A DNA stretch of 33,272 nt from an uncultured Alphaproteobacteria bacterium (GTDB lineage: Bacteria; Pseudomonadota; Alphaproteobacteria; CAAHEQ01; UBA3637): the NCBI GenBank assembly GCA_947629595.1, contig CANREI010000004.1:1-33272 (forward strand), read 5' to 3'. How positions within the stretch are numbered: the stretch's first letter is position 1; the number at the start of each line of letters is the position of its first letter. The position numbers and the translations under genes are program-made. Shown here in pieces: positions 5,934 through 27,611 of the stretch. The notes under the pieces were generated by a model, which saw only the letters and a program-made list of their open reading frames with translations, had not been told where the DNA came from and made no database searches.

Positions 5934-6533
5934 TTAAAACACCAAATGCAATAAAATACCGAAAAGAGCGCCCGAAATCATAATTTGAATCATGGAAAGG
6001 CGCAATTTCAACGCACTGAAAAAAGCAAGCAGCGCTATAACCGTTTCAACGGGATTAACGGCAAAGCCTTGTAAAGAAGCCCCCGCGGTGATAAAGTCAA
6101 ACAAGCGCCTCCACGGAACGGGTTGCGTAAAAACCGACATACCGGCAAACAACACAATCGCATAAGAAATCATGGCAACGCCCGCATAGCGCACCCCTTT
6201 TAATATGCCTTGCATAAAAAGCGTTTTTTCCAATCGATCCAAAACGGTAATGGCGCAAAACGACAGGAAAACAGTGGGCAACACAAGCCCCAACGAGGCT
6301 GCCAAAGCCCCTAAAATACCCCGTTGCGTAAAACCGATCCATGTGGCCGTGTTTAAACTGACGGCACCCGGCGTGATTTGCGATAAAACAAGCAAATTGC
6401 CGAATGCGTCTAATGAAAAAACAGGATTTTCTTCCACAAAAGTTGTCATCAACAGCGGAATAATCATATAACCGCCGCCGAACAAAACCACGCTGAATTT
6501 GGCAAACTGACAAAACAAAAAAAGACTACTCAT
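5934..6533 (-). CDS. Half-size chromate-type transporter (CHR family), second subunit
   Basis: A 199-residue, very hydrophobic inner-membrane protein of the short-chain CHR family, members of which work as pairs of homologous half-transporters. Seen: an N-terminal 'FCQFAKFSVVLFGGGYMIIPLL' type segment and the CHR signature 'SQITPGAVSLNTATWIG'. The full-length ChrA has two such domains in one chain; here they are two genes. The start at 6533 overlaps the end of the preceding CHR gene by 8 nt, so the two are almost certainly made together. Chromate/sulfate antiport is the family assignment; the true substrate in this host is unknown. Confidence 0.85.
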   Translation of the reverse strand: MSSLFLFCQFAKFSVVLFGGGYMIIPLLMTTFVEENPVFSLDAFGNLLVLSQITPGAVSLNTATWIGFTQRGILGALAASLGLVLPTVFLSFCAITVLDRLEKTLFMQGILKGVRYAGVAMISYAIVLFAGMSVFTQPVPWRRLFDFITAGASLQGFAVNPVETVIALLAFFSALKLRLSMIQIMISGALFGILLHLVF

Positions 6534-7143
6534 GTTTTTTCTCCTTGAAGAAGAGCTTTTTTTGCTTCTTTAAAATTAAAAAGAATCCGACGGGCATGGA
6601 AAACATAATTACATAAAGCGGATATACGTTTGCCATCAGTAAAATCAGCAAAATTAAAATAATGAGCCCGTCCCAAACGGAATGAATAATCTCTTTTCCC
6701 AAGCGCCACGCCGTTACGGCAAAAACGCCCGTTACTGCCGAGCGAATACCCGAAAAACCGCTTGTAATGTAAGGATTATTCGGACTTAAATCCGGAAAAA
6801 AATAAGCAATCGAACAAATAATCAGCAAGGAGGGAATCATCACACCGATTAAGGCCGCCACCGAGCCGATAAATCCCGCTATGCGCGAACCGACATATAA
6901 CGACGCATTCACGGCAATTAACCCCGGCACGGTTTGCGTTAATACCACCATATCCAATATTTCTTTTTTATTGAGCCATTTATGTTTGCGCAAAAAAACT
7001 TCTTCAATCACGGGTAACATGGCCAATCCGCCACCCACCACGAATAAGGCAATTTTAAAAAAGGTACAGAATAAAACCCGACACCGAACAATCAGCTCTT
7101 TTTTTGTTATTTTTTCAGGTGTTGTTTGAAACGATTTTCTCAT
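6526..7143 (-). CDS. Half-size chromate-type transporter (CHR family), first subunit
   Basis: A 205-residue membrane protein with the CHR-domain signatures 'FKIALFVVGGGLAMLPVIEE' and 'TQTVPGLIAVNASLYVGSRIAG', followed by further hydrophobic helices and a Lys-rich end ('KKQKKLFFKEKKHE'). It is the N-half partner of the following 199-residue paralogue. Its ATG overlaps the stop codon of the upstream repeat-protein gene (ATGA, 4 nt), so its translation is probably coupled to that secreted protein. The likely role is export of chromate or another oxyanion; the link to the repeat protein is unexplained. Confidence 0.85.
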   Translation of the reverse strand: MRKSFQTTPEKITKKELIVRCRVLFCTFFKIALFVVGGGLAMLPVIEEVFLRKHKWLNKKEILDMVVLTQTVPGLIAVNASLYVGSRIAGFIGSVAALIGVMIPSLLIICSIAYFFPDLSPNNPYITSGFSGIRSAVTGVFAVTAWRLGKEIIHSVWDGLIILILLILLMANVYPLYVIMFSMPVGFFLILKKQKKLFFKEKKHE

Positions 7144-9287
7144 TTTTGAGACAGAGCCGTTTTTTGCGCTGCTTTTTCATCTTTCGAAGCGTCTTTGACC
7201 TCTTTTGCCTTAACGGCGTTTTTATTCGCTTCGGCTTTCGAGGCTTCTCCGGCTTTTTCATCTTTTGAAGCTTCTTTTGCCTCTTCCGCCTTTACCGGCT
7301 CTTGAACCGCTTCGGCTTTTGGGGCTTCACCTGCTTTTTCATCTTTGGAAGCCTCCCCTTTTTTGCTTGTTCTTAACAATTCGTCCGTTTTGAATTCCAT
7401 TTCCAAAACAAGCTGGCCGTTTTCATCAAAAATTTGAGCAATACCGTCTTTTTTACCCTCTTTAAAATGCGCGATGCTTCTTAAAACACCGTTTTCAAAA
7501 TAGGTGCGACTTTCGCCGTTTAACAAATTATCACGATATTCATCTTCGCTTTGTAACTTGCCGTTTGCATGATAAATGCGTTGTTTTCCCTGCATTTGCC
7601 CGTTCACATACGCCGCATCGATGTGAATTTGTCCGTCGGGATAATATTGTTTAAATTCCCCGTCCGGCACATTATTCTTTAAAATGGTTCTGGAATTCAG
7701 CTGTCCGTTTTCATAATAGGTGGCAAACTCACCGTTTTGCTCGCCGTTTTGATAAAGCGCCGTTGTTTGCACTTGTCCGTTTTGATAATAAGCAATAAAA
7801 GGTCCGCTTTGAACACCGTTTTCAAATGTTTTTTCCGCCGCCAGCTGACCGTTTTCATAATATTCCTGTGATTTTCCCACCGCTTGTCCGGCACGCATAA
7901 CCACATGCGATTGCAAATTACCGTCAGAAAAATACGTGTTCATTTCACCGTCGGGCAAATCGTTTTTATAATGCAAATCCATTTTAATTTGCCCGTTTTG
8001 ATAATAAGCTTTTGCCGTACCGTCTTGCTTACCGGCTTTAAAATAAACCTCGTTTTCCAAACTTCCGTCGGGATAATAAGATTTACTCACACCGTCAATT
8101 AAATCGGCCTTATAAGTTTCTTCCTGCTGCAAGGCACCGAAATCATAATACGACTTGGAAACGCCTTCTTTAAAGCCGTCTTTATAATGCTCTTCCGATT
8201 GTAACTGTCCGTTTTCATAATAAGTTTTAACAATGCCTTCCGGCCCTTGCGGTTTAAACAACCCCTCGCCTTTGAGCTTGCCGTTCGGATAATATTCTTT
8301 CACTTCGCCGTTTAATTCGCCGTTTGTAAAATGACGCTCCAACAATAATTGCCCCGTTTCGCTAAATGCCTTATCCGTTCCGTCTTTCAAACCGTTTTTG
8401 TAATTCGTTTCAAAGTGCAATTGTCCCGACGGATAATAAATGCGCGAAACTCCTTCGGGTTTTCCCATTTTAAAAGTTGTTTCGTTTAACAATTTACCGG
8501 TATCATAGTAGGAAACGGCTTTATCAATCAAAAGCCCCTGATAATACATTTCAATCGTTTGAATTTGCCCGTTTTCATAATAGGTTCGACTTTCCCCGTG
8601 CGGTAATCCGTTAAAGAAATGCGTTCTTGCCAACAGTTTGCCCTCTTTTGTTTTTTCCTGCACAATACCCGTGAGCGGCATTTTACCGTTTTTCACATAA
8701 AAAATGCCGTTATTAAAGAAAATTTCATCTTTGGTAAAAGTGGGCAGTTTCATTTTTTTATCCGCAGAGGCTACGGGTTGCATCTCTCCCTCGGCTTGCG
8801 GACTGATATTCACAACCGGCTTAAAGCCCGTCGGCTCGTTTTGAGCAATATCCTGCACGGGGGCCGTCGGTTTCGAAGTCGGCACAACTGCCGTCGGTTC
8901 CGGCTTGACCAACGGTGCCGTTTGCAACACAGGCGCTAAACGAACGGCCGGCGCGGGGGACGACACAGCCGGAACAGTCTGCCCTGCTTTTGAAGGAACG
9001 GCGGGTGTTTTCATGACCGGTGCGGGAACAACGGTACCGTTTGCCGCGGGCATAACCATTTGAGTCGGTGCCTGAATTTGATGAACGGGAACGGCATTCC
9101 CCGCGGCGGGAACCTGTCCCATAACGGAAGCCGATAAAGATCCGGAAGAAAGCGGGCGCACGGCACGCGTCGGCTGAATGTTTGCCGCTTCCCGTAACGC
9201 CGCCGCATTGCTGACAACCTGTGCTTCAACGGATACCGTGCCGAAAAGCAACCCGCTCATTAACGCCATATTAAAAACTTTATTCAT
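7140..9287 (-). CDS. Secreted YwqK/MORN-type repeat protein
   Basis: I place the start at 9287 (715 residues) rather than 9404: this ATG has 'AAGGAG' five nt upstream and opens a clear signal peptide ('MNKVFNMALMSGLLFG...VEAQ', no lipobox Cys). After it come a Pro/Ala/Val-rich linker (~residues 25-170), about 18 tandem repeats of ~24 residues with the consensus 'YYxNGQLxxExxYKNGxxxG' (~190-645), and a Lys/Glu/Ala-rich tail with repeated 'ASKDEKAGEA'. The repeat is that of 'YwqK family antitoxin' / MORN_2 proteins, usually surface or periplasmic; no enzymatic motif is seen. It heads an overlapping unit with two CHR transporter genes. Function unknown. Confidence 0.8.
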   Translation of the reverse strand: MNKVFNMALMSGLLFGTVSVEAQVVSNAAALREAANIQPTRAVRPLSSGSLSASVMGQVPAAGNAVPVHQIQAPTQMVMPAANGTVVPAPVMKTPAVPSKAGQTVPAVSSPAPAVRLAPVLQTAPLVKPEPTAVVPTSKPTAPVQDIAQNEPTGFKPVVNISPQAEGEMQPVASADKKMKLPTFTKDEIFFNNGIFYVKNGKMPLTGIVQEKTKEGKLLARTHFFNGLPHGESRTYYENGQIQTIEMYYQGLLIDKAVSYYDTGKLLNETTFKMGKPEGVSRIYYPSGQLHFETNYKNGLKDGTDKAFSETGQLLLERHFTNGELNGEVKEYYPNGKLKGEGLFKPQGPEGIVKTYYENGQLQSEEHYKDGFKEGVSKSYYDFGALQQEETYKADLIDGVSKSYYPDGSLENEVYFKAGKQDGTAKAYYQNGQIKMDLHYKNDLPDGEMNTYFSDGNLQSHVVMRAGQAVGKSQEYYENGQLAAEKTFENGVQSGPFIAYYQNGQVQTTALYQNGEQNGEFATYYENGQLNSRTILKNNVPDGEFKQYYPDGQIHIDAAYVNGQMQGKQRIYHANGKLQSEDEYRDNLLNGESRTYFENGVLRSIAHFKEGKKDGIAQIFDENGQLVLEMEFKTDELLRTSKKGEASKDEKAGEAPKAEAVQEPVKAEEAKEASKDEKAGEASKAEANKNAVKAKEVKDASKDEKAAQKTALSQK
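7366..8720 (-). repeat. Tandem ~72-bp coding repeats (YwqK/MORN type)
   Basis: About 18 copies of a 24-codon unit ending in 'xG' with internal 'YYENGQL'-like cores. Copies are diverged at the DNA level, so this is an old array rather than a recent expansion. Confidence 0.75.
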
Positions 9288-9314
9288 AAAAACTCCTTTT
9301 ATAAAAGTGTTATT

Positions 9315-9343
9315 AAAATAGCAGATTACACAATTAAAATCAA
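9315..9343 (-). promoter_or_regulatory. Promoter of the repeat protein / CHR transporter unit
   Basis: Minus-strand TTGATT (9343-9338), 17-nt spacer, TATTTT (9320-9315) with a TG one base upstream of the -10 (extended -10). It lies 28 nt before the chosen start codon and supports the start at 9287. Confidence 0.6.
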
Positions 9344-10006: not shown

Positions 10007-10294
10007 TTAATTTTCAAACCGTGAAAATAATTCGCACACTTCTTTCAAAGCTTTTTCGCGCTCTTTTTCATTGTCAAACGAACGGCAGACATATTCTTTT
10101 AAATACATATTCAACAAATTACTTTCAACGGCTTTAACGGCACCGCGTACGGAACGTAATTGCGTTAAAACATCAGAACGGTTTCGCCCCGCCTCCAACA
10201 TTCTTTTAACGCCTTCGATTTGCCCGATAATCCGATTTAATTTCGGCAATTGCGACATCGGATTTATCTCTTTTTGTTTCGACAGTATTTTCAT
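10007..10294 (-). CDS. CsoR/RcnR-family (DUF156) transcriptional regulator, atypical ligands
   Basis: A 95-residue all-helical protein with the family core 'KLNRIIGQIEGVKRMLEAGR' and 'DVLTQLRSVRGAVKAVESNLL'. I choose the ATG at 10294 because 'CAAAAGGAAT' sits 8 nt upstream; the ORF-track start at 10327 has no ribosome binding site, and 10258 is a further option. Family members repress efflux genes and release DNA on binding Cu(I), Ni(II) or formaldehyde. Here the first CsoR Cys is Ser ('RSDVL') and the His/Cys pair is 'MYLKEY', so the standard copper site is absent; a Cys follows in 'YVCRSF'. The inducer cannot be predicted. No metal efflux gene is adjacent. Confidence 0.8.
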   Translation of the reverse strand: MKILSKQKEINPMSQLPKLNRIIGQIEGVKRMLEAGRNRSDVLTQLRSVRGAVKAVESNLLNMYLKEYVCRSFDNEKEREKALKEVCELFSRFEN

Positions 10295-11486: not shown

Positions 11487-13475
11487 TTAGAACATCATTG
11501 TTGCGCGAATGGAAGCAACCGTTGCCGTATTCGATTTTTGATTCAAGCCGGGATTGATGTAAAACTGCACATCCGGCGTGATGGTCATAAACGAGCTGAT
11601 GCCCCACGCCCAATAAGCTTCCAACATATTTTCAACCGAGCGCGACCCTTCTCCGTTTACGCCTTTATCCAGCTTATTCACGGCACCCGCAAAGCCGATT
11701 TGATCCAAGGCGTTTCGATTGAGCGGATTATTATAAACGCCGCCCAACACATATGACTGACGAATACCGTTTACGCCTTTATTCACACCGTTGGCACGCA
11801 TAAACAAAGCTAATTTTTGCCCCATATTTTGTTGGGCATTCACGCTCCACCCTTGTGTTTTTTCCGGCTGTGCCTCAACGGACGGCTGATGATAGAGCAG
11901 CACGCTCAAAGTTGCCTGTCCCAATTTATTTTTCGGGTTAATCGTTCCGCTGACAAATGACGTAAACTTTTTGCCCCAATGATTTGTGGAAATATTGTTG
12001 CCGTCAATGTTTTGCGCATCTTGTCCGCCGGCAGATATACTCCAAAACGGATCAGGCGATACGGTTAAATAACCGCCTAAACTTGCCGACGGATAGGTAC
12101 TTGTTGCGTTTTGCGAAAACGATTCGTTGACAAAGTTAATTTGTTGGTTCGAATCGTAAGTCGTTCCGTCAAAATTATACATCGGAAACTGTCCGAGCGT
12201 TACGCTGAGCCAATTTAATTTGCCGGGCATTTGATGCGTATAACTTAATTCATAGAAATAGTTTGCTTTTGTCGTATAATCGTTTAAAGGCGTTACCACT
12301 CCGATATTACTGCCGAGTTCGGCACCGTTACCGTTCCAATAGCGCACCATTTCATACGCCAGGTTGGCCGAACCGCTGCCCCATGTATCCGACTGAAACA
12401 TATCCCATGTGGCGGCACCGTAATATTGCGTTTGCCACGGGGTAATATGCCCCGACGGCGCCCCGCGTTGCCCCATCAAAGAAACATCTAACGTATAAGA
12501 CAAACCCGTTTCTTTCAACAACTCGTTTTTTGCTTGCGCATAAGCGTTGGCCCAGCTGTTCACATCTTTATCGGCCCGACTTAAAAAAGAAGGGCTTGTT
12601 GCCTTTCTGCCGCGTGCCGTTTTCCCGTGTACAATCGGCACCGGATGCGTTGTTTCATCAGCGTTTAATACCGGAACATCGCCGGCGGATTTTCCGTTCG
12701 GGCACGTTTTTTCTGCCATGGCCTTCTTATTCATTCCATCACCGCCGTTTCTGCCTTGAATGTTATTTTGAAGCGACATCGGCTTACCGGCATCTTTCAC
12801 AACAGGTTTTACAGGTTGTTTTTGCGCAGGTATTTTAGCGGAAGGCTCCTTTACACCGTACGTTTTTTGCAGGGCCTCCTGATGCAGGCGTGATGCCTTT
12901 TCTTCATTTGTTTCCGTTATATTTTGCCACTTTTCTTTGGTCCCTTCTTTCACGTCTTGCCATGTTTCTTTGGTTCCCTCTTTCACATCTTCCCATTTTT
13001 CGGCGGTAGCGTCTTTCACATCACTCCACTTTTCGGCCGTTGCATCTTTTATGTCACTCCACTTTTCGGCGGTAGCGTCTTTCACGTCACTCCACTTTTC
13101 GGCGGTAGCGTCTTTCACGTCACTCCACTTTTCGGCGGTAGCATCTTTTGTTTTTTGCCACGTATCGGAAGCGCTTTCGGAAAGTGATTTTTGCTTTTGA
13201 ATATTTAATTGTTCCCTTTTCACGGCGCGATCCCGCACCAATTGTTTTTGCGTGCGGTTCAGTTTTTCGGCTTTGGGACTTTTTTGAACAGCTGCCTCAA
13301 TTTGTGCCTTATTTTGTTCCGTTTGAACGGGATGCATCGGCGCTGCCCGACTACCGGTTAACCGATACGGCGGTGTACCGTTTGCATCAGTCGGTTGCAT
13401 TTGTGCCGTTGCTTCCTGCGCCCAACATAAAAAACTTAAAATACCCGTTAAAAAATAAAAGTGTGCTTTTTGCAT
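11487..13475 (-). CDS. OprB-like outer-membrane porin with N-terminal 11-residue helical repeats
   Basis: The 662-residue precursor has a signal peptide (~1-24, ending 'EATA-Q'), a charged helical region, seven tandem 11-residue repeats ('KDATAEKWSDV', residues ~108-184), a Lys/Pro linker, and a C-terminal beta-barrel (~310-662) ending in Phe ('ATMMF'), as barrel proteins do for BAM recognition. Barrel segments such as 'WDMFQSDTWGSGSANLAYEM', 'AGGQDAQNIDGN' and 'EAYWAWGISSFMTITPDVQFYINPG' resemble the carbohydrate-selective porin OprB family, where the last strands carry 'TPxxQYIxxP'. The N-terminal repeats could span the periplasm or touch peptidoglycan; that is inference. 'GGGGGAATTTTATT' precedes the ATG. 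A terminator follows. Confidence 0.7.
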   Translation of the reverse strand: MQKAHFYFLTGILSFLCWAQEATAQMQPTDANGTPPYRLTGSRAAPMHPVQTEQNKAQIEAAVQKSPKAEKLNRTQKQLVRDRAVKREQLNIQKQKSLSESASDTWQKTKDATAEKWSDVKDATAEKWSDVKDATAEKWSDIKDATAEKWSDVKDATAEKWEDVKEGTKETWQDVKEGTKEKWQNITETNEEKASRLHQEALQKTYGVKEPSAKIPAQKQPVKPVVKDAGKPMSLQNNIQGRNGGDGMNKKAMAEKTCPNGKSAGDVPVLNADETTHPVPIVHGKTARGRKATSPSFLSRADKDVNSWANAYAQAKNELLKETGLSYTLDVSLMGQRGAPSGHITPWQTQYYGAATWDMFQSDTWGSGSANLAYEMVRYWNGNGAELGSNIGVVTPLNDYTTKANYFYELSYTHQMPGKLNWLSVTLGQFPMYNFDGTTYDSNQQINFVNESFSQNATSTYPSASLGGYLTVSPDPFWSISAGGQDAQNIDGNNISTNHWGKKFTSFVSGTINPKNKLGQATLSVLLYHQPSVEAQPEKTQGWSVNAQQNMGQKLALFMRANGVNKGVNGIRQSYVLGGVYNNPLNRNALDQIGFAGAVNKLDKGVNGEGSRSVENMLEAYWAWGISSFMTITPDVQFYINPGLNQKSNTATVASIRATMMF
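12925..13155 (-). repeat. Seven tandem 33-bp coding repeats in the porin gene
   Basis: Seven 33-bp units encode the 11-residue motif KDATAEKWSDV. The units at 13057-13089 and 13090-13122 are identical and neighbours differ at only a few bases, so the array is prone to copy-number change. An 11-residue period with A/E/K/W suits a right-handed coiled coil or LEA-like helix. Confidence 0.9.
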
Positions 13476-23059: not shown

Positions 23060-24637
23060 TCACTCACATAAGGCATAGTCGAAGCTGCCGTTGCCGCGAC
23101 TGATGTAGTCGAGGTAACCGTTATAGAGGTAGACGCGGTACGCGAAGCAGGAAGAATCATTACTTCCATATGGATCGCTCAACCATAAATACTGGCTCGG
23201 ACGACTGTCTTCCTTCCCGTTATACGCCTTGCTTAATTCCTTCACTCCACTACTTACATCATCACTCGTGCTAGACTTATTACACGCCATCTCTGACCCC
23301 TCTGCATGGCAATATCCATATATACACTCTCCTCCGCTATATTGAATTTTATGCCTACATTGTAATTCAGAAATTGTCACCATGTGTTTATTACCCGGCA
23401 ACGCCTCGCAGAACCGCTTCGCACTCCACCAGGTCATAACCTTTGTTGATATAATGTATTTACTGCTTATATCTCCTGATTTGTTAATATCACTTTCTGC
23501 CTTCCTGCACTCACTCTTATAAGTGTCACTCCCCTCACCAAAGCCTTTGCTCTTATCAAATTCACTTGTGCAACTATATCCCCGATACAAATAGCAATAC
23601 TCTCCCTCTTTGCAATCAGCATTACTCTCGCATTCGCCGATTTTGCAGCGTTGTTTTTCTTCATCCCAATCGGCACATTGGTTGCATGTACCATAATTAG
23701 CGTAATAACCTGTATCGCACCAATAATGCTTCCCGTCTCCTTTTTTATCACAATCACTGTTCGTTCTGCATTCAACACATTGATTACTATACAAAACCGG
23801 CTTATCTTCCGGACATGTGGCAACACATTCACTGCCGTTCCAGTTTGGTGTATCCGGATAAACATTTTTGCAAGTATCACACTTACCCTCGGCGTTACAA
23901 ATCGGATAACTTGAACTGGTGCAATGGCTGTTATCACCGCATGCCGCACACTCTTCTATTTCTTTATTCCAATGCTGACTTGATGAGCATTTGCATTGCC
24001 TTGTCGCTTCATCCCACGGCGCGTCTTCCGGGCAGTTTTTACACGCACCGTCTGCGCTGCAATACCCTTCACACGTTGCCTCATCGCATTCTTTTCCGCC
24101 GCCCGAAACGCCCAAATCTTTGGTCGAAAAGGCTACCATTACTTCATTTTCTTCATTGTCACAAGGGATTTCCGCCGTCTCATAATCTTTACCGTTAATT
24201 TCTAATACGGCCGTATCATCCATGCCGTCTAATAAGGTTGCCAAAGGTTTACACACCCCGGCCGGTATGCCTGATAATGCAAATGAATAGCCCGTTTCTG
24301 TTTCGCCCGGCGTTTCTGTTTCTATATCTTCAAATTCAACCGCAACGCCATAATTTGCATTAAATTTTAAGTGTTTTTCATCATCGTACGGCGAGCCGAG
24401 CAATAATTCTTCCGCCCCTTGCGCAACTTTTATTTTTGCATCGGTGCGCATGAGGTTAATTTCATTCGCGATTTGATTCGCCTGATACCGATTCATGGCC
24501 ATTCTATATCCTGAAATGCCGCCGATTGAAATAACGCCGATAACGGCCAGAACGCCCAGCATTTCAACCATACTACGGCCTTGTTGCGCTTGATTTTCAA
24601 TTTGTTTTAATTGTTTTTTCCTTGTTTTATTGCTCAT
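23060..24637 (-). CDS. Pilin-like Cys-rich protein with C-type-lectin-like C-terminus (left adhesin)
   Basis: A 525-residue protein. A 20-residue basic leader ends in Gly before 'RSMVEMLGVLAVIGVISIGG', a type IV prepilin-like cleavage site with Glu at +5 but Arg, not Phe, at +1. A pilin-like helix and small domain follow to ~residue 180, with 'GVCKPLATLLDGMD' shared with its paralogue. Residues ~185-375 contain many Cys in EGF-like or knottin-like modules ('CPEDAPWDEATRQC', 'CGDNSHCTSSSYPIC'). The end (~395-525) resembles a C-type lectin fold: 'MTWWSAKRFCEALPG', 'YLWLSD', 'CFAYRVYLYNG', 'YALCE'. Likely exported and surface exposed as a pseudopilin-tipped adhesin; this is inference. 'AAAGGAAGCG' precedes the ATG. 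No pilus machinery is in the window. Confidence 0.75.
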   Translation of the reverse strand: MSNKTRKKQLKQIENQAQQGRSMVEMLGVLAVIGVISIGGISGYRMAMNRYQANQIANEINLMRTDAKIKVAQGAEELLLGSPYDDEKHLKFNANYGVAVEFEDIETETPGETETGYSFALSGIPAGVCKPLATLLDGMDDTAVLEINGKDYETAEIPCDNEENEVMVAFSTKDLGVSGGGKECDEATCEGYCSADGACKNCPEDAPWDEATRQCKCSSSQHWNKEIEECAACGDNSHCTSSSYPICNAEGKCDTCKNVYPDTPNWNGSECVATCPEDKPVLYSNQCVECRTNSDCDKKGDGKHYWCDTGYYANYGTCNQCADWDEEKQRCKIGECESNADCKEGEYCYLYRGYSCTSEFDKSKGFGEGSDTYKSECRKAESDINKSGDISSKYIISTKVMTWWSAKRFCEALPGNKHMVTISELQCRHKIQYSGGECIYGYCHAEGSEMACNKSSTSDDVSSGVKELSKAYNGKEDSRPSQYLWLSDPYGSNDSSCFAYRVYLYNGYLDYISRGNGSFDYALCE

Positions 24638-26090: not shown

Positions 26091-26119
26091 ATGACAAGAA
26101 AATTAAAAAAACAAATTGA
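25964..26119 (+). CDS. Short leader ORF overlapping the right adhesin start
   Basis: The ATG follows GGAGG by 8 nt and encodes 'MQYQRVIKSLFYQFLRVILP...' for 51 residues, running past the adhesin ATG (26091) in another frame, whereas the left version stops before its gene. The first ~36 residues parallel the left leader ORF. If translated it could couple to or interfere with adhesin initiation. Coding status is uncertain. Confidence 0.35.
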   Translation: MQYQRVIKSLFYQFLRVILPPNLRCIKRTFILCYSYTERESENDKKIKKTN

Positions 26120-27611
26120 AACACGCTCTCAAAGCGGCCGGAGCATGATTGAAATGCTGGGGGTGCTGGCGATTATTGCCGTTCTGTCCATCGGTGGGAT
26201 TGTGGGCTATAAATTAGCTATGAACTACTATCAGGCCGATCAGATTGCGAATGAAATTAACTTAATGCGTAACGATTTAAAGGTTAAATATGCTCTGGGG
26301 AATGAAGAATTGTTATTGGGGGACCCTTATGATGATACACCCGCAGATGAAAATTACAGCGGGCATTTATCAACACAATATGATCGTTATCCCGTTGATT
26401 ATGATTGCATCCGCAAAGACAAAGCAGAATTTTATAATTGTCGCGAAACAGATGCTTATTATATTAAAGTGGGAAATGTTTCGAAAGGCGTCTGTAAGCC
26501 CCTCGCAACGCTTCTTAATGGCATGGACGGTTTAATGTATATGGAAATCAATAAAGAAGTTTATAAAGAAAATGATTTATGCACGAGTGATGAAAATAAT
26601 GAAATTTATATTGAATTTGATGCGGAAGAAGTGAATGGAAACTATGATTCGAATCGTCCCGAAGGTTGGTGCACTGATGATGACGATTGTGACGCTTCAA
26701 GACCTATTTGTGATATAGAAAATAATGAATGCGTGGAATGTATAGATTATACGGATTGCACGGATTCCACCAAACCCCGTTGTAATGTTGAACAAGGTAA
26801 TTGCGAATCGTGTCCGCCGGAAACGCCTAAATGGAACGGCGAAGAGTGTGTGGAATGTTTATCGTCTGCCGATTGCACGAATCTCGATAAACCAAATTGT
26901 AACGCAGGGACAAACACATGTGAAGCATGCCCGCCGGAAAAACCATTATGGAACGGCTCAAATTGTGAAGCTTGCCCTGAAGATGAACCGTGGAACGGCG
27001 AATCTTGCGGATGCAGAAGTAATGATGATTGCGAAACGGATGAATATTGCTCTATGTTGTGGCGTACAGGTGATATATGTCAAATTGCCGAAACAGGAAA
27101 GTGTAAAAAATTAGGCCATTATCAGAAAGAACAGTTTGATAATGAAACCTACTATGTATCAGATGAAACAATGACATGGTGGAGTGCTCAAAATTACTGT
27201 CAAGCCCTTACGCGCACAACAGATTGCGGCGGTAACATGGTGAGTTGGAGCAAACTCAATTTGCAATGCGCCAATGAAATTGTGGTTCAAGATGGTTGTA
27301 AATGCAGTGATGAAAATTGTAATTTGGATCACCAAGTCAAACAATGTCAACGATTAAGTCTCGCCGAAGGTATCCATTTGTATTGCAAAAAAGATACTGC
27401 CGGAACAAGCGGTTCATCAAATATTCCGGATAAACTGAAAACATTACGAGAAACGTTTTTTAACAATGACTCCGAAAGTTTTGTTTGGCTTAATGACGGA
27501 AATAATCCTTGCTATGCGTGGGTTATCGGACCAAACGGAATTGTTACCGCTCGTCCGCGATATTACGGTAGAGATATCTTGGTGAGCGACGGCCATGCCT
27601 TTTGTTATTAA
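26091..27611 (+). CDS. Pilin-like Cys-rich protein with C-type-lectin-like C-terminus (right adhesin)
   Basis: A 506-residue paralogue of the left adhesin. A 16-residue basic leader ends in Gly before 'RSMIEMLGVLAIIAVLSIGG', again with Glu at +5 and Arg at +1. The pilin-like part shares 'ADQIANEINLMRNDLKVK', 'NEELLLGDPYDD' and 'GVCKPLATLLNGMD'. Cys-rich modules (~190-325) recur as 'CPPETPKWNGEECVEC' and 'CPPEKPLWNGSNCEAC'. The C-terminus (~355-506) has 'MTWWSAQNYCQAL', 'FVWLND', 'CYAWVIGPNGIV' and ends 'HAFCY'. The N-terminal third is similar to the left protein; the modules and lectin-like part are strongly diverged, as expected for a variable binding tip. 'AAAGGGAGTCGG' is the ribosome binding site. 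Surface adhesion is inferred from architecture only. Confidence 0.75.
   Translation: MTRKLKKQIETRSQSGRSMIEMLGVLAIIAVLSIGGIVGYKLAMNYYQADQIANEINLMRNDLKVKYALGNEELLLGDPYDDTPADENYSGHLSTQYDRYPVDYDCIRKDKAEFYNCRETDAYYIKVGNVSKGVCKPLATLLNGMDGLMYMEINKEVYKENDLCTSDENNEIYIEFDAEEVNGNYDSNRPEGWCTDDDDCDASRPICDIENNECVECIDYTDCTDSTKPRCNVEQGNCESCPPETPKWNGEECVECLSSADCTNLDKPNCNAGTNTCEACPPEKPLWNGSNCEACPEDEPWNGESCGCRSNDDCETDEYCSMLWRTGDICQIAETGKCKKLGHYQKEQFDNETYYVSDETMTWWSAQNYCQALTRTTDCGGNMVSWSKLNLQCANEIVVQDGCKCSDENCNLDHQVKQCQRLSLAEGIHLYCKKDTAGTSGSSNIPDKLKTLRETFFNNDSESFVWLNDGNNPCYAWVIGPNGIVTARPRYYGRDILVSDGHAFCY

Follow-up and report, generated by a model that had tools for sequence, protein, structure and literature searches.

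The window analysed here is a stretch of 33,272 nucleotides, the entire contig CANREI010000004.1 of a 1.34-Mb metagenome-assembled genome (MAG, 77% complete) of an uncultured alphaproteobacterium. On its minus strand lie three closely packed genes. The first, REP (7140..9287), encodes a 715-aa protein of MORN_2 (YwqK-like) repeats that is predicted to be exported, and the next two, chr1 (6526..7143) and chr2 (5934..6533), encode the 205-aa and 199-aa halves of a short-chain transporter of the CHR family (PF02417). All genomes compared are MAGs, and the named relatives are uncultured Alphaproteobacteria, several of them from rabbit ('Lapin') and ruminant gut samples. We find that the three genes stand together in a single clade of one genus, and that in relatives outside this clade REP lies apart from the CHR genes.

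The stop of REP and the start of chr1 overlap by 4 nt (ATGA), and chr1 and chr2 overlap by 8 nt (ATGAGTAG). These overlaps, together with the coordinates and the strand given by the initial annotation, all proved correct when the sequence was checked again. REP has a Shine-Dalgarno sequence, AAGGAG (9293..9298, minus strand), and chr2 has another AAGGAG at 6546-6541, inside chr1. The ATG of chr1 has no clear Shine-Dalgarno sequence in front, and because this is so in the window clade, chr1 seems tied to the translation of REP, most likely by stop-start reinitiation at the ATGA overlap.

Ahead of REP is a candidate promoter, TTGATT-N17-TATTTT with an extended -10 TG (9315..9343, minus strand), in which TTGATT runs from 9343 to 9338, the spacer measures 17 nt and the extended -10 element, TGCTATTTT, runs from 9323 to 9315. 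It falls below the threshold of a generic promoter scan and is absent from that scan's listing. It is conserved in all six genomes that have the linked genes, though the upstream gene differs between clades. Between the window genome (G000) and a member of the sister clade (G001), the promoter patch is the only upstream stretch that aligns, with a local score of 36 against a maximum of 34 in 500 shuffles (0/500 as good as the real alignment). The earlier proposal of one extended -10 promoter ahead of all three genes is thus upheld, and we infer that REP, chr1 and chr2 are co-transcribed as a single message. A promoter shared with the unlinked REP genes was also considered and rejected: TTGATTTT boxes are visible, and the local alignments are unconvincing against shuffles.

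Conservation and relocation of the three-gene order

The order REP-chr1-chr2 occurs in six of the ten genomes of the genus. Four of these (G000, G005, G007 and G009) have the ATGA overlap, and the other two (G001 and G008) have the same order with a 41-nt gap between REP and chr1, G008 being cut inside chr1 at a contig end. In the LepA tree the linked genomes fall into a single clade (support 85/93; 1 change against a shuffled mean of 4.8), and their chr1 halves group together in the CHR tree (support 89/92). Order and promoter have been kept while REP diverged to 72% identity and chr1 to 58%, and both CHR genes are under purifying selection (dN/dS 0.03-0.29). An assembly artefact was rejected, since independent MAGs show the order again and, where it is unlinked, REP has other genes on both sides.

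Outside this clade the genes are apart. REP is on one contig and the CHR pair on another in G002, G003 and G006, of the same genus, and in G014 and G024, of a sister genus, so that REP is unlinked from CHR in five of the 11 genomes having a REP orthologue; in G004 a CHR pair is present and no REP orthologue was detected. In the three congeners REP is preceded by a gene of ~90-99 aa and a helix-turn-helix (HTH) gene, behind mnmG, and the CHR pair is followed by an amidase gene. In the two genomes of the sister genus REP is again behind an HTH gene. Across the family, CHR genes are found in 36 of 43 genomes and REP-like genes (E<=1e-30) in 14. Of 80 loci found by a REP profile, only five, all from linked congeners, had a CHR gene in the flanks that were fetched, which extended to 8 kb at most and often to less at contig ends; at the 75 other MORN_2 loci these flanks held no CHR gene.

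The initial annotation had taken the tight coupling behind one promoter to suggest a joint role. The overlaps, the promoter and an order kept in six genomes at two chromosomal sites bear out the coupling itself. A general partnership is not supported: REP is unlinked from CHR in five close relatives, the observation that the initial annotation had named as refuting its idea. Because the genes are apart in congeners and in the sister genus, and because no CHR gene was found near the 75 other MORN_2 loci, the linkage is clade-specific.

Given that the REP loci of G002 and G014 have common downstream genes (families F37, F36 and F35), REP and CHR were probably unlinked in the ancestor and became linked later. 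In the linked genomes the gene behind an HTH gene belongs to the amidase family that stands behind chr2 in the unlinked genomes, which fits either an HTH-REP-chr1-chr2-amidase intermediate that lost REP-chr1-chr2 or an exchange of neighbours. The unit now stands at two unrelated sites. In the window clade it is flanked by lepA and a methyltransferase gene, and in G001 by SDR and HAD genes, with the HAD side also present in G008. In G001 and G008, rplS, lepA and the methyltransferase gene lie at unrelated places, and REP-chr1-chr2 are still together. The gene order of the genus is strongly scrambled, and of the flanking adjacencies tested only the csoR-like/LPG-synthase-like one was also kept. 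Given that the unit and its promoter patch moved together between sites, its cohesion argues for some benefit of co-expression, not for direct interaction.

The small LuxR-type HTH gene occurs with a gene of ~90-134 aa (L199:3702-4364, contig C20 of the window genome) and is single-copy in most of the family. The downstream neighbour of this pair changes, being REP, the amidase gene or others.

The REP protein and the CHR pair

REP scores 252.8 bits against Pfam MORN_2 (PF07661; curated cut-off 29.6). Its N-terminus (residues 1-22; 9222..9287, minus strand, as are all parts of REP) reads by eye as a Sec signal peptide, MNKVFNMALMSGLLFGTVSVEA followed by Q, with predicted cleavage between VEA and Q, and a similar n/h/c pattern can be read in the other linked REP orthologues. 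The earlier description of a secreted protein therefore agrees with a likely export signal. A Pro/Ala/Val-rich linker follows (residues 23-178; 8754..9221), which is probably disordered, residues 1-178 having pLDDT <50 in the AlphaFold prediction; its length varies among relatives, and it is mostly absent in unlinked orthologues. At the other end is a Lys/Glu/Ala-rich tail (residues 645-715; 7143..7355), also predicted to be disordered (pLDDT <50). In this long form, which takes the REP frame into chr1, the tail is found only in the four-genome window clade.

Between these lies an array of 18 MORN_2 units of 24 residues (residues 212-643; 7359..8654). Seventeen units follow one another at exact 24-residue spacing (residues 236-643, starting at residues 236, 260, ... 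620, with zero indels) and one degenerate unit stands before them. A unit hidden Markov model (HMM), iterated on all loci, also counted 18, in agreement with the initial annotation. The same model found 18 units in every other intact congeneric REP orthologue, linked or unlinked. In G002 an in-frame TAA interrupts the orthologue (L009:1465-3105, contig C14), which may be a gene in decay or the result of a sequencing error. The repeat region is under strong purifying selection (dN/dS 0.04-0.08 against four relatives). The array had also been called long for its repeat family, a view that does not hold: arrays of 20-30 units occur in other phyla, with 24-30 reached in Bacteroidales, Chlamydiae/Parachlamydiales and others, and G027, of the same family as the window genome, has a MORN_2 locus with 22 units.

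In the AlphaFold prediction, residues 179-644 are mostly at pLDDT >90 and form a long, continuous series of short strands and beta-hairpins, that is, a predicted MORN-type beta-hairpin ribbon. The closest meaningful folds found by Foldseek are eukaryotic MORN1 structures (target TM about 0.56-0.63). Many Rhs/teneurin matches were set aside as generic beta-hairpin similarity, given their poor superposition (TM about 0.1, root-mean-square deviation about 40). When solved structures were searched by sequence, REP had only weak MORN matches, of SET7/9. REP thus resembles eukaryotic MORN1 (Toxoplasma, Trypanosoma, Plasmodium) in its predicted continuous ribbon, but it is bacterial and predicted to be exported, and identity is about 17-22% only. 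We infer that REP is an exported structural or binding protein of the envelope, in the periplasm or the outer envelope.

MORN_2 proteins are common in bacteria, where annotation as antitoxin or virulence factor is frequent and direct evidence of function is scarce. Like them, REP is built of 24-residue MORN_2 units, but it differs in its long disordered N- and C-terminal tails, its 18 units and its linkage to CHR. As in Fusobacterium, genomes of the window family carry several MORN_2 genes, and Fusobacterium MORN2 members have been found in outer-membrane vesicles (PMC10434195). In ywqJ-ywqK, the gene for the YwqK antitoxin of Bacillus subtilis lies beside an LXG/polymorphic toxin gene (PMC8321402), whereas no such gene lies beside REP. 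The neighbours of the unit are lepA, the methyltransferase gene and a metal-repressor-family gene, with no cognate polymorphic toxin gene. A toxin-antitoxin or YwqK immunity reading was rejected because no toxin gene is adjacent and REP is likely exported.

The split chromate transporter of the initial annotation is indeed made of two PF02417 (Chromate_transp) halves, with 134.8 bits for chr1 and 103.7 bits for chr2 (curated cut-off 28.6). As adjacent single-domain genes for proteins of ~200 aa, they form a short-chain CHR pair like YwrB/YwrA of Bacillus subtilis. They differ from YwrB/YwrA in that a MORN_2 gene for a predicted exported protein precedes them and no chromate regulator was recognised, and in having relatives that adjoin cysDN and arylsulfotransferase genes. 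A search against solved structures returned no CHR relative. Short-chain CHR proteins of ~200 aa and the loss of sulfate through CHR pumps have been discussed previously (PMC8940164).

The CHR trees separate two types in the family. The type found in the window includes pairs adjoining cysD-cysN in G001 (L248:6995-10405, contig C7), where chr2 overlaps cysD by 13 nt, and in G028 (L247:4672-10396, contig C2). A CHR pair of G012 that was outside the tree also precedes cysD-cysN (L246:4883-10602, contig C4). In G032, G011, G066, G014 and G024, pairs of the window type lie a few kb from cysD on the same contig. Arylsulfotransferase genes stand beside several CHR pairs, and TauE-family genes also occur in such clusters. 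We found cysD in 13 of 18 genomes with the window CHR type and in 0 of 22 without it (Fisher p=7e-7, kinship ignored). In the window genome cysD lies beside an arylsulfotransferase-type gene, the family of which was confirmed on the G005 orthologue, with no transporter adjacent. SulP and TauE, sought as alternative sulfate transporters, were not detected in G000, G005, G007 and G009, a result that counts for CHR as the sulfate carrier, though ABC-type sulfate importers were not searched for. Given that related pairs adjoin cysD-cysN and arylsulfotransferase genes, the CHR pair most likely carries sulfate rather than chromate. The suggestion that the locus handles an anion gains support from these neighbours. 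More widely, the association of CHR with cysDN and arylsulfotransferases suggests that sulfate is what some 'chromate transporters' of gut bacteria carry, a point of importance for annotation. The pairs of G001, G012 and G028, directly ahead of cysD-cysN, may supply the sulfate for its activation. A literature search found no paper linking CHR with sulfate adenylyltransferase.

In most cysD-bearing genomes cysD is the single PF01507 gene (L244:578-2999, contig C74 of the window genome, and in family genomes), with no second PF01507 gene as a would-be PAPS/APS reductase. For this reason, activated sulfate in these genomes may serve sulfation rather than assimilation.

Possible explanations of the linkage

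We lean towards a recently assembled operon, in which an ancestrally independent envelope beta-ribbon protein (REP) and a sulfate-type CHR heterodimer came together and the promoter and translation of REP drive the CHR genes. A single assembly event, in the ancestor of one clade within a genus of gut Alphaproteobacteria, would have produced the unit. One message for the three genes would start from the promoter directly before REP, with REP translated from its own Shine-Dalgarno sequence, chr1 by reinitiation at the ATGA and chr2 from the AAGGAG inside chr1. Chr1 and Chr2 would be the halves of a short-chain CHR transporter, most likely a heterodimer, that moves sulfate or a similar oxyanion, chromate not being its natural substrate. 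REP, which would be older than the CHR linkage and independent of CHR, would be exported via Sec and form a rigid ribbon of 18 beta-hairpins between disordered tails, with a structural or binding role in the periplasm or outer envelope. Linkage would give co-expression, which may help if the cell requires the envelope protein and the anion transporter at the same time, or may have resulted from genome shuffling as a side effect.

Several observations weigh against this reading. A PHO4 permease, present in nine of ten congeners (among them G005, G007 and G009; not found in the incomplete window genome), could also carry sulfate, so CHR is not the sole candidate. The CHR pair of the window does not adjoin cysDN, and no cysD was detected in G003, G004 and G008, though they have the window CHR type. 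The six linked genomes include four that are very closely related, three of them named as one rabbit-gut series. Lastly, an order kept across two sites could itself point to a joint role.

In a true partnership REP would serve the CHR transporter as an adaptor or scaffold in the envelope, holding for instance a periplasmic or outer-membrane partner, and the three proteins would work as a single system. Six genomes keep the order through a change of chromosomal site with the promoter conserved, REP and chr1 overlap in the window clade, and a MORN_2 gene also heads the Mla operon in all ten congeners, so that a pairing of MORN_2 with a transporter is repeated in the genus. Yet REP is unlinked in five of 11 genomes and absent from G004 despite the CHR pair, the 75 other MORN_2 loci have no CHR beside them, the array has 18 units whether linked or not, and most CHR pairs of the family are without REP. 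We regard such a partnership as rather unlikely; a joint system of REP and CHR is possible and not favoured, because the linkage is confined to one clade and REP existed before it. At the other extreme, REP may have landed before the CHR pair by accident and hitch-hiked, with co-expression that has no fitness effect. The scrambled gene order of the genus is in keeping with this, and HTH-REP and CHR-amidase neighbours in the unlinked genomes against HTH-amidase (of the same family) in the linked ones fit an exchange of neighbours. Pure accident nevertheless seems unlikely to us, given that order and promoter persisted at two sites to the identities reported above, and that chr1 of the window clade, with no Shine-Dalgarno sequence of its own, is seemingly tied to REP translation.

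Gut anaerobes are unlikely to meet chromate. An operon for chromate resistance, in which REP would be an accessory protein of the envelope, would fit the Pfam name of the transporter, the treatment of the short-chain pair YwrBA of B. subtilis as a chromate efflux pump (PMC8940164), and a gene of the metal-sensitive-repressor family about 0.7 kb beyond REP (window 10007-10294). But a divergent methyltransferase gene stands between REP and this repressor gene, whose stable neighbour elsewhere is an LPG-synthase-like gene, no chrB or similar regulator of the chrBA type was recognised among the neighbours scanned, and related CHR pairs neighbour sulfate-activation genes. Taken together, we consider chromate resistance highly improbable. 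If the recently assembled operon is the correct explanation, coupling through gene overlaps can be of recent origin, a product of gene relocation, and is not to be taken for a sign of ancient partnership.

MORN_2 at the Mla operon and other genes of the window

A MORN_2 gene other than REP, for a membrane-anchored protein, lies immediately ahead of mlaE, an adjacency found in 10 of 10 congeners. Where the fetched sequence reached far enough, mlaF, mlaD and a gene for an ABC auxiliary lipoprotein come after mlaE. These loci include L209:4621-9135 (contig C8 of G005), L210, L271, L272 and L070-L076. The MORN_2-Mla coupling is sturdier than that of REP and CHR. It raises the prior for a role of MORN_2 in envelope transport in the genus, and by itself it does not tie REP to CHR. 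A literature search found no paper on MORN_2 with Mla operons. It is conceivable, though we find it doubtful, that MORN_2 ribbons were repeatedly recruited as envelope adaptors heading transporter operons (Mla; REP-CHR), bridging an inner-membrane transporter to the periplasm or outer membrane. Exported or membrane-anchored MORN_2 members that repeatedly head transporter operons would offer testable envelope roles for this family.

Other genes of the window have features of their own. An OprB-type porin gene (11487-13475) has a block of near-identical 'DATAEKWSDVK' repeats in the N-terminal half of its protein. A gene for a TraG/TraD-type conjugative coupling protein (PF02534; 13612-15843) keeps its place in the gene order throughout the four-genome window clade. 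Two related genes (23060-24637 and 26091-27611) encode proteins with a 'GRSMVEMLGVLAVIGV' pilin-like N-terminus, and similar genes are present at many loci of these genomes.

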